Origin: Ulva prolifera
Lineage: Eukaryota > Chlorophyta > Ulvophyceae > Ulvales > Ulvaceae
Reading direction: 5' to 3'
Assembly (NCBI GenBank): GCA_023078555.1
Contig: CM041197.1
Span: 8,712,842-8,776,841 of the forward strand
DNA length: 64,000 nt
Part shown: positions 35,084 through 43,600 of the stretch, piece by piece
Numbering within the stretch: the stretch's first letter is position 1
How the letters are laid out: the number at the start of each line of letters is the position of its first letter
Notes under the pieces: generated by a model
Database searches by the model: none
Seen by the model: the letters and a program-made list of their open reading frames with translations, nothing else
Told to the model about the DNA's origin: nothing
Translations under genes and position numbers: made by a program

Positions 35084-36990
35084 GTGCCATGTCTGCGGTG
35101 CCACCTGCTTCTCCATCAGTGTCGATGTTGCGCATCAGTGCATCAGAAAAGCGATGAAGGGCATGCACACACTGGCAGGCAGATCCGCTGCGCTGGCCTC
35201 CACGACGAGCGCGCGGGGGAGGCTATCCGGCGGTACATCAACCTCATCCTTGCAGGGCGGATTCCCCACTCAGAGACCCTGCTCGCGTCCCGCCTGATTG
35301 CGCTTGAAAAGCCGTCGGGGGCCCCGCGGCCTATCGCGATTGGCGAGATCTTCATTCGACTGGCCAGCATCTGCGCCCTGGCATGTGTGCCGGACGCCGG
35401 CGCTCTGCTGGCCCCCCTTCAGATCGGCGTCGGCATCCAAGGTGGCGCCGAAATCCCTAGGCATGCCCTGCGGCCAGATTTCGCTGACCCTGCCACGGTC
35501 ACGGTTTCCACAGACCTCCAGAATGCCTTCAATGAGATGTCCCGGGAGACGATGAGGACGCAGCTTGCAGAGACTCTGCCACAGCTCCTGCCGTACTTCC
35601 ACACGGTGTACGGGCGGGGCAGCCCGCTGGTCGCCGTGCGACCGGACGGCACCACAGCGGAGCTGCGCAGCGAATCGGGGGTGAGACAGGGCGACCCCCT
35701 GGGCCCGCTCCTATTCGCGCTCGCCTACCTCCCCACCCTGAAGGAAGCACAGGGGCTTGCCCCCAATTCCCTGGCCCTGGTCACGTCGTGCCACGATGAT
35801 ACGTATGTGCAGGGCGACGCGGAGAGCGTCGTGGCGGCTGCGAATGCCATCCTCTCGCGGCACAAGTGCAACCGCGCAAAAACAGTCGTGTACTGCGCAG
35901 ACCCTGAGAAGGCGCGCCATGTGGCGGCGCAGCTGCGGGCCTCGGTGGCCCCGGAGGGGCTCCTTGTGTGCGGAACCCCGCTTGGCACACAGGCATTCGT
36001 CGACGCCCACGTGCGGCAGCGCTGCCAGCGGACTGTGGAGCTCATCGACAAGCTCGTGGGACTGCCGCTGCAGTCCCAGTCGAAGTGGGCGGTCCTGTTC
36101 CACTGCCTGCAGAATCGGGAGGCGCATCTCCTCCGGAACACGCCGTGGACTGCACTCCGGGAACACCTGCCAGCTGTAGAAGAGGCTACGCTGCGTGGCC
36201 TTTGCAGCATTATCGGTGTGTCTGATTTGACCCCGGCACAGGCCGAGCAGGCCATCCTGCCTCACCGCCACGGCGGAATGGGGCTCCGGCACTACTGCGA
36301 GGACGTCGCGGATGCGGCGCGCATGTCATCCGCCGCGCTGGCTCAATGCGCCCTCGCCGACGGTGTCGAGCGCGGCCTGCCGTTCCGGGGCTGCGCAGCC
36401 GTCGAGATGCAGCAAGTGCTCGACAGACTCCGTCTGACATGGAGTGTCTCCATCCCAGATATCGCCAACAGTCCCGCAGGCGCAGCGAACTGGGCAGTTG
36501 ACGAATCGGCAAAGGTGCGGCTGACCCAACTGCAGCGCGCGCTCGCCCGGGCAGAGGCTGACGGGCGCAAAGCTGCGGTCTTCCAGGCGCTGCGCGTGGC
36601 CACGAACGGCCGCTCCGCCCAGATTGCAGCAAGGGCTCGAGCGTCGAGAGCCCGCCTGCGCAGCTGCATGGGCGCCATCGCGTCGGCGTGGCTCATGGCG
36701 CTCCCGGGCCCCGTCACGGGCCTGTCCGACATGGAGTTCGGAGTCTGCGCCCGCTTGAGGTTGGGCGAGGCCCTGCTGCCTACCCTGAGCGACGACGGTG
36801 ATTGCCCCTGTGGCTGCAGCGGGGAGTCCGGCACCCACTCACTGGTCTGTAAGTCGCTGTGGGGGACTGTGATCGCCCGCCACAACCTGCTCGTGGAGGC
36901 GTGGCGCCGCGTCATCGCGCGCAGCGGCATCGCCTCCGCGGTGGAACCGCACCTGAGCAGACTCCCGCAGGGCCTCGGCCGTGGCCTCCC
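35084..36990 (+). CDS. Reverse transcriptase with C-terminal zinc motif (non-LTR type)
   Basis: The frame has no stop until 37411, but family resemblance ends near 36990. RT motifs in order: GAPRPIAIGE (motif 2 region, near 35320), TDLQNAFNEMS (motif A, catalytic Asp near 35513), SGVRQGDPLGPLLFAL (motif B, near 35675-35720) and CHDDTYVQG (motif C, near 35790-35815). Motif C has DD preceded by H where most RTs have YADD or FADD. After a thumb and connector region comes CPCGCSGESGTHSLVC (near 36805-36852), a zinc-binding pattern, then IARHNLLVEAWRRVI, the RHN motif that precedes the endonuclease in this class. Beyond 36990 the frame reads a Pro/Arg/Ser-rich low-complexity stretch. No upstream ORF or start codon is convincing. 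Confidence 0.85.
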
Positions 36991-37112
36991 CGCACGCCCG
37001 GCAGCAACCCGCACGTCACCATCCACCACACCCTCACCGGTGAGGGCCCGCTCAGGCCTCGGCCGCGCCCTCAACCTCTCATGGCGCCCAGGCTCTGCCC
37101 TCCATCTTCCCT

Positions 37113-38027
37113 GTGGCTGCTCCCGTATGCACTGCCGACGCCGATGCCGCGGTCCTCGGCGCTGTCGTTCTCGGCGCCGCTGCGATCCGCGCGCAGTCGC
37201 CCCGCGCCCACGATGTGGCCGACCCCTGGCCAGCTCTCCCTGCAACAGCTCAGCCTGTCTCCGACACCTCCCCTGCCTCGGCCGCGCCCGCTCCCTCCCA
37301 TGGCGCCCAGGCTCCCCCTCCTGTCACGTACGCAGCTGCTGTCTCCGCCTCGGGGTGGGCTCCCTGTGTCACGCCTGCCCCCGACGCTGGCCCGACCCCC
37401 ACCCCGGCTGAGCCCGGAGCGGCGCCGCCAGCGGCGCCGGGGGCGGCGGGCGACGAGCATGACGCCCCTGACCCTCACCGGCCTCTGGCGGCCGGGCAGC
37501 GTTCGCGGCGATCGGACAACGCCCGGAGTGCCCCTTCAGCTCCTCCTCCCCGGTCGCGCAGAGGCGCTCAGCGCGGTGACATTCTCGCGTTCTTCCCTGG
37601 CTCGCCGGTGATCGGCGACGTGTGCGTGTCTCACCCTCTGGCTGGCTCGAATGTCCGCTCCGCGGCAGCCTGTGACGGCGCCGCCGCGGCGCAGTCCGAC
37701 CAGCGCAAGCGCGACAAATACGGCCGGGCGGGCTCCGGCGCATTCACCCTGGTGCCACTCTCTCACGAGACATATGGGAGGATTGGCCCTGCCGCGTTCG
37801 CCTTCCTGAACCGGCTTGCCGACCTTGCTGCAGGTTCGGGCGCCGCCTCCCGGCGGCTGTTTTTGGAGAATGCGATGCGCGACCTGTCCACGACGCTGTG
37901 CCGCGCGGTGGCTCGGCAGGTGCACGCCGCTGCCCCGCTGATGGCGCGTCATGCGGGCAAGGCTGTTTTGACGGGGCTGGCAGTCCCGTCCGATGACCTC
38001 AAGCCGCTCACAGGCCACCCGGCCTGA
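37113..38027 (+). CDS. Restriction-like endonuclease domain of the retroelement, out of frame with the RT
   Basis: The first half (to about 37550) is a Pro/Ala/Ser-rich linker. The second half reads RGDILAFFPGSPVIGDVCVS, then KRDKYG and LVPLSHETYGRIG. This matches the PD-(D/E)XK-like endonuclease that follows the RHN motif in related elements: a D near the start, a D in a hydrophobic strand (IGDVCV), a Lys downstream and an E-x-x-G-R motif. In intact relatives it is continuous with the RT; here it is shifted by one base relative to the RT frame. The linker contains imperfect direct repeats (GCCGCGCCC...ATGGCGCCCAGGCTC near 37064 and 37280), so slippage there is the likely cause. It would nick target DNA to prime reverse transcription. 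Confidence 0.6.
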   Translation: MAAPVCTADADAAVLGAVVLGAAAIRAQSPRAHDVADPWPALPATAQPVSDTSPASAAPAPSHGAQAPPPVTYAAAVSASGWAPCVTPAPDAGPTPTPAEPGAAPPAAPGAAGDEHDAPDPHRPLAAGQRSRRSDNARSAPSAPPPRSRRGAQRGDILAFFPGSPVIGDVCVSHPLAGSNVRSAAACDGAAAAQSDQRKRDKYGRAGSGAFTLVPLSHETYGRIGPAAFAFLNRLADLAAGSGAASRRLFLENAMRDLSTTLCRAVARQVHAAAPLMARHAGKAVLTGLAVPSDDLKPLTGHPA

Positions 38028-38618
38028 GTGGCGCTGCGCGCCCGCCCGGGCTGCGTGGTGGGCAGTCACCGCTGCGTGCACGCTCGCAGCCTCGTCCGCT
38101 TTGTTGTGATGGCGGCTTAGGCGTGCCGCGTTTCTCTGGTGTCTTCCCCATGCGCCTGCTTGAGGCCCGCCGTTGGGACATAGCCGGGTAGTTTGGGCGG
38201 GCTGGGCTGGACTTTGGGGATTACGGGTGTGGGTTTGCGGGCGGGCGGGTTGGTGTGCGAGGGCTGGGCTTGGGGGGTTGCGCTGGGGGAGGCGGGGGCC
38301 TCCCCGGGTTGGGGGTTTTTGTTGCGGTCTCGCTGTTTGTTTGCTGGGCGGCCTTGGCGGCTTGTGCTTCCGGGTCTCGTGCGCCTGGCTGGAGGGCGGG
38401 GTTCGGCTGGGTGTGGGCGTGTGGGTGTTGGCGTGTGTGTGGCTGTGTGGCTGTGTGGCTGTGTCCGGCGCGGGTGCTGCCGTTGCGTGGGTGTTTTGGT
38501 GTGAGCTTCGTGTGGCTTGCTGCGTGGTGTGCGGTTCCCCTGGTTCTTGCTTGCGGTGCTACCTGCCTCGCTTGCTTTGTCCTTGTAACACACAGGCAGA
38601 ACACACCATGTCGGCACA

Positions 38619-38708
38619 CCATGTCGGCGTCTGATGAGGCCCTTTGGAAAGGCCGAAACATGTGATGAGGCCCTTTGGAAAGGCCGAAACATGTTATGCC
38701 GGTCTGTG
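38619..38708 (+). ncRNA. Candidate type I hammerhead ribozyme with duplicated core
   Basis: The core CTGATGA (38631-38637) is followed by stem II GGCC/GGCC (38638-38641 with 38651-38654) and GAAA (38655-38658). Stem I pairs CGGCGU (38625-38630) with AUGCCG (38696-38701); U-G and G-U pairs extend it outward, then a mismatch and two more pairs. Stem III pairs CAUG (38659-38662) with CAUG (38690-38693), leaving UU at 38694-38695 as the N-U-H cleavage site directly before stem I. The stem III loop contains a second copy of the core (38663-38689) whose leading C is G. Two tandem ACACCATGTCGGC blocks precede the core. All invariant core bases of the first copy are present. It lies about 600 nt after the endonuclease stop, as expected for a self-processing retroelement end. 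Confidence 0.7.
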
Positions 38709-38710
38709 AT

Positions 38711-40616
38711 GTTCATGTAATACAGCATCAACCAGTGAACTTTCTACCTCAGTACACTACGTAGCACATTACATTTCGGAGCATGACCTCAAAATGCCTT
38801 CAATGCAGTGCGTCCAACATGGAATGCAGAAGTTGAGTTGAGATGTTCGCTTTGACAGTTGCATAAAGTGCGTTATTCATCTGACTCGTTGGTGGGGGAC
38901 AGTGACGACCATGCACTGGGTGTCACATCGTGATCCATTCTGCAGGCCAGGCCAGCACAAATTACGAGATCGTCATGAAGTTTGATGTTTTGAAGCATCT
39001 ACATCTCTTGATTGAATACTGTTGGCTTTTACACTGGTGGTGAGATGCCTGCAGATGCTCAAGTAGTCCGGAGCACATTGCCTCACATGCCAGAAGCAGT
39101 CCATGACCGCTTTGGTCGAAAGGTCGGCGTCCCTTATGGAAATATGGTAACATTGTGCGACCTAAATCCGCCTCGTGAACGTCCATTTGTAGTCCATGGC
39201 CACTGTGCTGTTTGTTTGAAAACAAAGCTGTTTGTTTGAAAACAAAGTGCACAGCAGGTCATTTGAATACAAGCCTCTATTATACCTGAATCCAACCCGG
39301 AGAGTGCTTCCTACATTTTTGCAGTGCCAGAATTATGCACGAACTTGAGCAAGCGTATCGGAAAAGCGTGTTTCAGATAGCGAGGCCCGTGACTCCGTCG
39401 TGAAACGCACATTCACATGCCAGATCATAGAACAAAACGAGAATGTGCAAGAATGGTGACGTTGCAATCATTGCTACCGATTGACGCAACACTGATCCGG
39501 GGCTGGTATCGCAGCGGTCGTACGGACTACAGCTTCCGGTCGAGGTACGCCGCACACATACCCGACAGTGTCATGTCTGAATCCCCGGCCAATCCAATCA
39601 TGTACTGGGGACGCTGCTCTGATCGCACTGATGTGTCGGCAACACATCCTGATCGGCCATCCGCTTTCAAGGCCGTCCTGGTAGGTGGAGTGGCGACCTG
39701 TGCTCACGTGGCCTATGCAAGCAAAGAGCGATCAGCAAAGGCACTTGTTGCAAGTGGACAGTAGCCCATCGGCAGGCTCTTGGTTGCGCTACGATCTATT
39801 CGGGACAAATCAGACGGGTCGGCTCAACAGATCGCGATTGATATGCTCTGCACATCGTTCGCTCAATGGCTAACGATCAACATTGAACCGCGGCATGATT
39901 TGATTTGTCAGGAAAGATTACATATCGCTGCTTGATTTCATGTTTTCGATGGAAGGCTTGCATGTCAACGCCACAGCTGTGCCACACACACGTCCTTTAC
40001 TTGCTCCCGGACGGCCAATACATGGTTGAGAATGGAATTCAAGCTGAAGTGGTTGATCACGTCGTCCACGCTCTTCTTCGGTGCGCTTTTAATTGCCGCA
40101 CGAATCGTCTTTCAAGACATGCGAGGACTGCTGTGGAGACTCTTCGGATCGAGTGTTGTTGACTGCGATGCTAAGTAGTCTATTACAGTTTTTTTCCCAC
40201 GCAATGCGCGAGCTCGTGTTATCTGCTACTGCTGTGGAAATCCCAGTGTAGCAGTCACATACCGCGGCTCGTCTGTGGGCATGAAGCATCGTGCATCCAG
40301 TTTGCTGGCTCATCAGAGGCAATGCTCTCAGGTGCAGTGCACATTGTCTCCGTTGTCTGCTGTCGCAGCGTTTGTGCAGCTAAAAGCCTCGAACTTGAGC
40401 CTGGATTGTGTCACCATTCACGTTTATGCACTGCTGGCATAGATTTACTCTACTTTACTTTACTGCTGGCCGGACCATTATAGCTTATTCTCCTGGTCAG
40501 GTTGCCCATGCACATCGTTTGCTTGATTCAAGCACTTGTCGCAATGTCATCTACCGGTAAGTATGCTGTAATGCTATACATATCCCGCCCATACATATCT
40601 CGCGACATCCCACCAT
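38711..40616. other. Intergenic region between retroelement and polycystin gene
   Basis: Only short open frames without motifs. A 20-bp direct repeat (GCTGTTTGTTTGAAAACAAA) occurs twice in tandem at 39208-39247, and each copy holds an imperfect palindrome. A TTTACTCTACTTTACTTTAC stretch at 40444-40463 resembles the tail of the dispersed repeat at 50.3 kb. Confidence 0.4.
39208..39247. repeat. Tandem 20-bp repeat with internal palindrome
   Basis: Two exact adjacent copies of GCTGTTTGTTTGAAAACAAA. TTTGTTT and AAAACAAA within each copy are near-complementary. Confidence 0.9.
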
Positions 40617-43600
40617 GTGCAACAGGCTCACCTCAACTCACTGAATCGTTCAGGACTCTTCCTTGCAAGACTTTGCACACATGTGCACGCACGCACATCA
40701 GGCGTGCATATAGATGACTATGGCAACGGCGCTGCCTCCGACCAGCACACATTCCGTCGCATCGACACCGCGCAAGACTCTTTGGGGGCCAGCAACTTCA
40801 GATTGCTCCAACAAGTAGAGCCATGGATGGAGCGATACATCTCCCCGCCGTTCCCACCGCCCTCACCTCCTCCACCAAACCCCCCATATCCTCCAGAGCC
40901 CTTCCCTCCTCCATCTCCCCCGCCGCCGCCAGACCCTCCCATGCCGCCCTCGCCGCCGTTCCCCCCACCTTCACCGCCGCCGTCCCCACCACCACCGGCA
41001 CCCCCTCCCTCGCCCCCCCCCTTTCCTCCACCGTCACCGCCACCGTCTCCTCCGCCACCGCCCCCCTCCCCGCCACCCTCACCCCCTCCGCCTTTTCCCC
41101 CGCCGTCGCCACCACCCCCCTCCCCTCCACCGCCGCCTCCTCCCCCATCTCCCCCGCCATCGCCACCACCCCCCTCCCCGCCACCCTCACCCCCTCCGCC
41201 TTTTCCCCCGCCGTCGCCACCACCCCCCTCCCCTCCACCGCCGCCTCCTCCCCCATCTCCCCCGCCATCGCCACCACCCCCATTTCCGCCGCCCTCACCC
41301 CCTCCGCCTTTTCCCCCGCCGTCGCCACCACCCCCCTCCCCTCCACCGCCGCCTCCTCCCCCATCTCCCCCGCCATCGCCACCACCCCCATTTCCGCCTC
41401 CCTCACCCCCTCCGCCTTTTCCCCCGCCGTCGCCACCACCCCCCTCCCCTCCACCGCCGCCTCCTCCCCCATCTCCCCCGCCATCGCCACCACCCCCATT
41501 TCCGCCGCCCTCACCCCCTCCGCCTTTTCCCCCGCCGTTGCCACCACCCCCCCTCCCCTCCACCGCCGCCTCCTCCCCCATCTCCCCCGCCATCGCCACC
41601 ACCCCCATTTCCGCCGCCCTCACCCCCTCCGCCTTTTCCCCCGCCGTCGCCACCACCCCCCTCCCCGCCACCCTCGCCTCCTCCCTCATCTCCCCCGCCA
41701 TCGCCACCACCCCCATTTCCGCCTCCCTCACCCCCACCCAGCCCACCACCGTCACCACCCCCAAGGCCCCCTCCTAGCCCCCCACCTGGACCCCCACCCT
41801 CGCCGCCGCCAGCACCTCCACCCTTTCCGCCGCCGCCGTTCCCGTCACCACTGCCCCCTCCCCACCCTCCTCCTAGCCCCCCACTGTCACCCCCACCCTT
41901 ACCTCCTCTGTTTCCGCCGCCGTCACCTCCGCCGTTGCCGCCCCCAAACCCCCCTCCACACTCACCACAACCAGTGCCCCCTCCTTCCCCGCACCCTTTC
42001 CCACCACCCCCCTTTCCCCCACCCTCTCCCCCACCGCTGCCTGTCCCGCCGTCACCCCCAGCGCTATCGCCTCCCCTTCCCTTGCCCCCACCCCCACCCC
42101 CGTCACCCCCACCACCCAGCCCGCCACCACCTAGCCCGCCACCTCCTAGCCCACCACCTCCTAGCCCACCACCTACAATGCCCCCACCTTTGCCCCCACC
42201 GCCCAGCCCTCCTCCGCCATACCCCCCTCCATTTCCACCACCACCGTCACCCCCACCACCCTCTCCACCCCTCCCACCCCCACCTCCACTACCGCCATCT
42301 CCGCCGCCTGCCCCTCCCCCCCCCTCCCCGCCTCCATCGCCGCCACCGCCGCCATCCCCGCCTCCGCCTCCTCCCCTCGCGGCCGTCCTCCGTGAGCTCC
42401 CCCCCTCAGCCACCAACTCCATCCCGGACCCGCCGAGCGCCGGCCCAGACGTCAACCCCCCAAAGCTCATTCTCCTTGGCCCCTCCGACTTTCGCCTTCC
42501 CCTGGACACCCCCTTCACCGACCCTGGAGTCTACGCGACAGACCCTGAAGGGTCCCGGGTGACCATCGTGACCACTGGCGCCGCAGTGGTGCGGAGTGAC
42601 ACGCTCACCCTCACCCCGGGCATGGCCGTCCCCTCCGGCGCCGCCACACTGCCACCGCCATTCACAGTGCAGTACACTGCGACAGACGAGGCTGGGAACA
42701 TGGCGACCATGAGCCGGACAGTGTCTGTGTTTGACCCATGCGCGCCAGCGGAGCGCTGGTGTGCCGGCGCCGCGCTGTGCTCCGTCAGCGGCATGTGCCT
42801 CTCCTTCAACCCCTGCCTCAGCGATTCGCACCGTGCCCTCTTTCCGGACCTCTGCACCGCATCTGGCACCGCAGATGGCGGCGTGTTCTCGGTCGTTGCC
42901 GACACGATTCCGCCGCGGATCACGGTGGGGGGCCCGGGCCCCCTCGCTGCGACAGGCGCGGAGGCATACGTGCGGTACACATACATCTCAGCGGCACCGA
43001 CGGCCACATGGGTGGACCCCGGGGTGCGGGGGGAGGACAATGTAGACGGTGACATCAGCAGCTCGGTCACGGTGTTTGGGTTGAAGGCGCTGCAAACGGA
43101 GTGGGTGACTGACGTCGCCGCTCCGCATGTGCTGACATACCTGCTGCGTGATGCGGCGGGCAATGAGGCGGTGCCGCAGCAGCGGTGGGTATTCGTGGCA
43201 TGCGCAGCCGGGGAGCGGGAGTGCGTGCATGGCAGCGGCCGGCGGTTCTGCTCGGCGGGTGGTGCGTGTGTGGAGCCCTCGGTGCTTGTGCGCGATGCCC
43301 CGCCAACGGTGACATTACTGGTGCGCCCCTCTTATCATCCTCTCCCCCGCCTTTGCTGTTACACCATGGCGGACGGGCGGCTCGACAAAGAGTCTGATGA
43401 CTCCGTGCGGGCCATGCTGGCGAGAATCATGCTGTCCCATGTTGAGGAAATATGACTGCAGTGCTGGAGTCACATCCGTGGCAGCTGCGTTTTCATTCCA
43501 CCTCTCCACAGCGAGGGCAAGTGCGCTGGCATGGTGTGTGCATCCCCGCAAACACGAAAGCGGTGGAACCCAGCTGGACAGTCGTCAGTTTCCCTCGTGC

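Follow-up and report, generated by a model that had tools for sequence, protein, structure and literature searches.

The core of a hammerhead ribozyme is CUGANGA ... GAAA, accompanied by an NUH cleavage triplet. Minimal type I hammerheads of Penelope-like elements (PLEs) were reportedly described by Cervera and De la Pena in 2014 and by Lunse, Weinberg and Breaker in 2017. PLEs with an N-terminal endonuclease have a CxC between the endonuclease and the reverse transcriptase (RT) and no CCHH cysteine pair in the endonuclease, and Craig et al., who reportedly defined them in 2021, are said to describe them as being without canonical hammerhead motifs. The minimal type I hammerheads of canonical PLEs are treated in three reviews (PMC7761336, PMC6155905, PMC11722881), the first two of which describe them as being without helix III and possibly cleaving in dimeric form. 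PLEs are 5'-truncated on insertion, according to PMC8969392, and the ribozyme of PAc (Poseidon of Anolis carolinensis) cleaved only with protein present and was dispensable for insertion in vitro (PMC11167929).

The window, i.e., the whole analysed stretch of 64,000 nucleotides of Ulva prolifera DNA, contains a candidate hammerhead with a full core, stems I to III and a GUU^A site in type I order, as a previous sequence-only reading had claimed, with cleavage predicted after position 38695 (Table 1). The region is, very probably, the 5'-truncated 3' end of a Penelope-like retroelement (N-terminal GIY-YIG, C-terminal RT) carrying a type I hammerhead, and the LINE-like RT element found upstream is unrelated to it.

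Table 1. Position of the features around the candidate hammerhead (window coordinates).
Feature	Position	Strand	Description
LINE-like RT element, 5'-truncated	~35180..38594	+	ends ...TTTGTCCTTGTAAC(AC)n; neighbour, outside the hammerhead element
13-nt tandem repeat, ACACCATGTCGGC x2	38603..38628	+	between LINE end and Penelope-like copy; read from sequence
Stem I strands	38623..38703	+	38623-38630 with 38696-38703; from pairing and consensus of copies
5'-truncated 3' end of Penelope-like element	38626..38754	+	GGCGTCTGATGA to CTACCTCAGTA; from matches to copies and upstream comparison
Hammerhead core 1	38631..38658	+	CUGAUGA 38631-38637, stem II GGCC/GGCC hairpin 38638-38654, GAAA 38655-38658
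Stem III strands, intramolecular, around second core	38659..38693	+	CAUG 38659-38662 with CAUG 38690-38693
Second core, TGATGA..GAAA	38663..38689	+	within exact 31-nt tandem repeat; private to window copy
Predicted cleavage site, GUU^A	38694..38696	+	between 38695 and 38696

In the window copy, eight pairs are possible in stem I (five Watson-Crick and three G-U) and five in stem III, the outer part of the 5' strand of stem I being probably flanking DNA. The 27-nt core, admitting up to three mismatches, was matched twice in the window and never in 100 shuffles. The second of the two cores does lie in the loop of stem III, as previously noticed, but the change of its leading C to G is not a point change: the C is missing because this core begins where the two units of an exact 31-nt tandem repeat meet (38632-38662, 38663-38693). 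The core duplication is an accident unique to the window copy, the only genome match to its junction (two mismatches at most) being the window itself, and all copies examined have one full core each, except the window (L001) and the fold-back copy L059. A duplicated core as a feature of the family was rejected on the single junction match, which equally speaks against any general role of the duplicated form in 3'-end definition or transcript processing. Since other duplications occur in the same stretch at L059 and L070, the window core was probably duplicated via slippage during reverse transcription. With such a duplication, ACAUG could pair with CAUGU inside a single molecule and stem III would need no partner, but the folds competing with this hammerhead have the higher predicted stability. 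At L070 (contig C3:11848224-11848314) the 3' half of the core is partly duplicated. L059 (contig C3:1370000-1370420) is a head-to-head scrambled copy in which five core-pattern matches, distributed over the two strands, fall in approximately 160 bp; it is reminiscent of the inverted pLTRs and palindromes known from PLEs (PMC3846280).

In the genome (88.9 Mb, 44 contigs), a BLAST search with the 201 nt around the motif retrieved 42 rows, namely the window, 39 rows starting at 38663 (query position 104) and two short ones. The 19-nt core pattern AAGGCCGAAACATGTTATG, with up to two mismatches, gave 107 genome matches and its reversed control none; matches are not copies here, the window contributing two and L059 five. 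In this and three further pattern searches, the places listed were the first 100 of 107, 187, 107 and 131. Most of the copies examined read CACGTAGGCGT / CTGATGAGGCCCTTTGGCAAGGCCGAAACATGTT / ATGCCGGTCCGTG. Their 3' ends are ...CAGT(TAG)TA, then mostly CA, their 5' ends vary, and many of them, not all, are flanked by candidate target duplications with a length of ~8-21 nt. The window locus is an ordinary truncated copy of this Penelope-like 3' end; its 5' edge, set by eye, is uncertain (~38626-38629), as GGC also ends the flanking 13-nt tandem repeat. Two copies, L008 and L009, lie 3370 bp apart on contig C9 and form a tandem segmental duplication, their alignment showing 100% identity over the motif, the preceding 1537 nt and the following 736 nt.

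The longer copies reveal the coding part of the element. L013 and L030 run upstream into an RT frame (RVT_1 scoring only 15.0 and 16.9 bits against a cut-off of 29.6), in which the motif FRYVDD was read by eye, and upstream of the RT a GIY-YIG domain (PF01541) was found above the Pfam cut-off, with E values of 4.7e-8 in L067 and 2.1e-8 in L068. A match to TIGR01453 was also obtained (3.6e-12, below its cut-off), and on contig C8 GIY-YIG and RT share a single frame of 1026 codons. In both L067 and L068 a CSC triplet between endonuclease and RT, and one cysteine between GVY and YIG, were recognised by eye without reference sequences; endonuclease before RT together with CxC is the layout of Chlamys/Naiad PLEs. 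Here, what is probably an N-terminal-endonuclease PLE carries a candidate for the canonical hammerhead that the group is said to lack. PDB and NCBIfam searches provided no useful relative for the RT, the predicted structure of the RT part (367 aa) had a mean pLDDT of 34.9, and no 5' pLTR or 5' hammerhead was seen in the two long copies L067 and L068.

The hammerhead is placed approximately 420-450 nt past the RT frame and 60 nt before the 3' end of the element. Using 41 of 64 PLE RT match rows (those reaching query residue 345, some rows being pieces of one copy) and 135 motif positions from the matches listed, 33 rows were found to be followed on the same strand, at no more than 2 kb, by a hammerhead match, at a distance of 417-554 nt in 29 of them and of 372, 720, 1072 and 1952 nt in the others; no hammerhead match lay within 2 kb downstream of the remaining eight.

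The candidate ribozyme sequence is preserved better than its surroundings. Core and stem II are identical at 30-32 of 33 positions between the two subfamilies, compared with 46-48 of 65-66 in the 64 nt upstream and 33-41 of 40-51 in the tail, and both subfamilies show CUGANGA...GAAA and the NUH triplet in order, with core changes in individual copies (e.g., L004, L016 and L058). Stem I pairs in both, as GGCGU/AUGCC in one and GACAU/GUGUC in the other. In an alignment of 15 of the 23 distinct sequences extracted, leaving out those truncated at the core (L007, L018, L058, L060, L063, L065) or rearranged (L059, L070), stem I was 97.3% paired over the two subfamilies and the whole structure 96.0% paired, against 31.1-42.9% with slid partners. 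One G-C to A-U double change in stem I occurs in 4 of the 15 sequences, and one outer stem I pair is open in 6. As to the shuffle control, two-sided pair changes were reached in 422 and pair types in 495 of 500 shuffles, and two further measures by 25 of 500. Compensating changes give stems I and II a support that, at the level of sequence, is modest because some of these shuffle measures are unexceptional. Conservation in the genome copies, together with stem I changes keeping pairing in two subfamilies, supports the type I assignment already proposed for the motif, as far as sequence can indicate.

Covariance models and folding were less favourable. The Rfam check that had been suggested for the motif retrieved nothing at the gathering threshold in the window, where the best match was Hammerhead_3, a type III alignment and thus another permutation, with 27.6 bits vs a cut-off of 48.5; the lack of a covariance-model hit had been named beforehand as an outcome that would refute the proposal. 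Nor did Rfam match, at E <= 1, any of 12 loci with single-core relatives, five of which are truncated at the core. Thermodynamic folding of the window copy assigned -21.1 kcal/mol to the proposed hammerhead fold vs -29.1 kcal/mol to the preferred one, and in the predicted ensemble the probability was ~0.62 for stem III, ~0.4 for the inner pairs of stem I and ~0.03 for the stem II belonging to core 1; a 116-nt stretch folded no better than its shuffles (z = -0.86). That the motif has decayed or lost its function, does not cleave and persists through the youth of its copies would agree with these unconstrained energies, which favour shapes other than the hammerhead, with the unexceptional shuffle controls, and with the near-identity of many subfamily A copies, 15 extracted loci of which share one identical 76-nt sequence. 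We nevertheless hold it quite unlikely, since stem I keeps its pairing and core and stem II are nearly invariant between subfamilies whose upstream sequences are only ~71-74% identical.

In the family at large, stem I consists of an inner helix, an internal loop and an outer CACG/CGUG helix (imperfect in subfamily B), stem II is GGCC/GGCC, and stem III is the loopless palindrome ACAUGU. As this palindrome leaves no room for a loop, two strands must pair, and by analogy with the minimal PLE hammerheads cleavage is probably dimeric. The partners, joined by their ACAUGU sequences, would be separate RNAs or a pair of units within one tandem transcript, and their cleavage after GUU or GUC would serve to trim tandem or read-through transcripts.

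The 5' ends were compared over 38 copies (L001-L030, L058 and L060-L066). Eight start within 9 nt, between -6 and +2 relative to the C of CUGAUGA (the window, L007, L018, L058, L060, L063, L065 and L066), three start between -89 and -7 (L012, L016 and L020), and the remaining 27 reach further upstream or to the end of the sequence examined. With uniform ends, the simulated chance of 8 of 11 falling in any 9-nt stretch is ~1e-4, for an interval chosen post hoc. Four more copies were picked for having no upstream match: L086 starts at the core, another is ambiguous, and the other two show no truncation at this place. Eight core-less copies with a tail match (L072-L079) were also inspected for a footprint of cleavage, with starts at |AUGCC; they were chosen from 20 such places among the matches listed (100 of 107) in a way that limits the positions to ~19. 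Starts lie no more than ~3 nt from the predicted cleavage site in L073, L076, L077 and L078 and some 6-9 nt upstream of it in L074, L075 and L079, and L072 is ambiguous; when the 3' flanks of six of them were read, target duplications were present in L074, L076, L077 and L078, and none was seen at L073 and L075.

The cluster of 5' ends at the core is open to three readings: the RT may halt at stem I of a dimer, the core may mark a pLTR-like edge, or transcripts may begin there. A more specific proposal, which we put forward tentatively and consider rather unlikely as a whole, is that of an autonomous N-terminal-endonuclease PLE lineage with a conserved dimeric hammerhead (palindromic stem III), in which the excess of 5' ends at CUGAUGA would mark RT stopping where a second RNA holds the 5' strand of stem I, so that genome copies would record in vivo dimers on the template. 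The same edge, shared by eight of 38 copies in the 9 nt around the core start, would also be expected if the short copies were a separate non-autonomous retrozyme-like element, using the PLE machinery and having its own 5' end at the core. This seems very improbable, because the short copies agree with the tails of long PLE copies in sequence and at the 3' end, the upstream limits of other copies are spread over many positions, and no hammerhead pairs a few hundred nt apart were found among the matches listed (100 of 107), except in the scrambled L059.

The sequence-only reading had assigned the hammerhead to the LINE-like element upstream, described as having both RT and endonuclease. The RT is there, with RVT_1 below the Pfam cut-off; no endonuclease domain was detected by Pfam either in the window LINE or in a 1513-aa relative. 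The family counts 78 RT match rows in the genome. When 15 other LINE copies (12 at 76-97% and three at 38% RT identity) were inspected over 2.5 kb or more downstream, by regular expression and covariance model, no hammerhead was found in any of them, so that the core expected beside other RT copies of this element was missing. When 15 hammerhead sequences were made into a covariance model and run against 30 sources (266,785 bases, LINE loci included), the one match was the window; the 26 LINE loci scanned are mutually overlapping and include that of the window. Among the matches listed, including 46 tails, a motif or tail match within 6 kb downstream was found for two of the 78 rows, one being the window and the other a tail-only match at 2250 nt. 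Conservation of the stem I complement in other copies likewise fails for the LINE and holds for the Penelope-like element owning the motif. A LINE with a 3' ribozyme was rejected, the motif being absent from the 3' sides of the 15 other copies inspected, and the proposed link to the upstream RT falls with it, given that the motif recurs with a different RT. That the hammerhead is the 3' end of this LINE, its duplicated form defining that end or processing transcripts, is suggested by an RT on the same strand in an element ending ~32 nt before the hammerhead copy, and is extremely improbable in view of the 15 copies without the motif, the two rows of 78 and a duplication seen once. In the window copy, L043, L044, L045 and L055 the LINE has its 3' terminus at (AC)n or AC-rich DNA, which suggests that the element targets microsatellites. 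Further downstream, the window has long proline/serine-rich ORFs (40617-42562); a frame overlapping them, 41935-43455, matches an Ig-like domain (PF16403). Proline-rich ORFs and a Chlamys-like element are both in keeping with a green-algal source.

Hammerheads in PLEs are known, and what may be new in Ulva is their presence in a PLE with an N-terminal endonuclease, for which no report was found in titles and abstract openings from a literature lying mostly outside subscription journals. If the statement attributed to the original definition of these PLEs holds, hammerheads extend to the N-terminal-endonuclease clade, and 5' ends clustered at the ribozyme offer a testable clue to the unsettled role of the hammerhead in PLE replication. 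As in Chlamys/Naiad PLEs, GIY-YIG precedes the RT, a CxC triplet (by eye) lies between, copies are 5'-truncated and the setting is green-algal; unlike them, reportedly devoid of canonical hammerheads, the Ulva family carries one. With the hammerheads of canonical PLEs, as presented in the reviews, the Ulva motif shares the type I order, little or no stem III, a position near a terminal repeat or tail and a proposed dimeric cleavage, whereas the N-terminal endonuclease, the 6-nt palindromic stem III and a stem I with internal loop and outer helix set it apart. In PAc, a hammerhead is likewise near the 3' end of the insertion with a short tail beyond, but the endonuclease is C-terminal and the hammerhead overlaps the ORF start (PMC11167929). 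Finally, like retrozymes (PMC7761336), the Ulva family has its hammerhead on a dispersed retroelement; unlike retrozymes, its copies are truncated tails of an element encoding RT and endonuclease, mostly with one hammerhead each.
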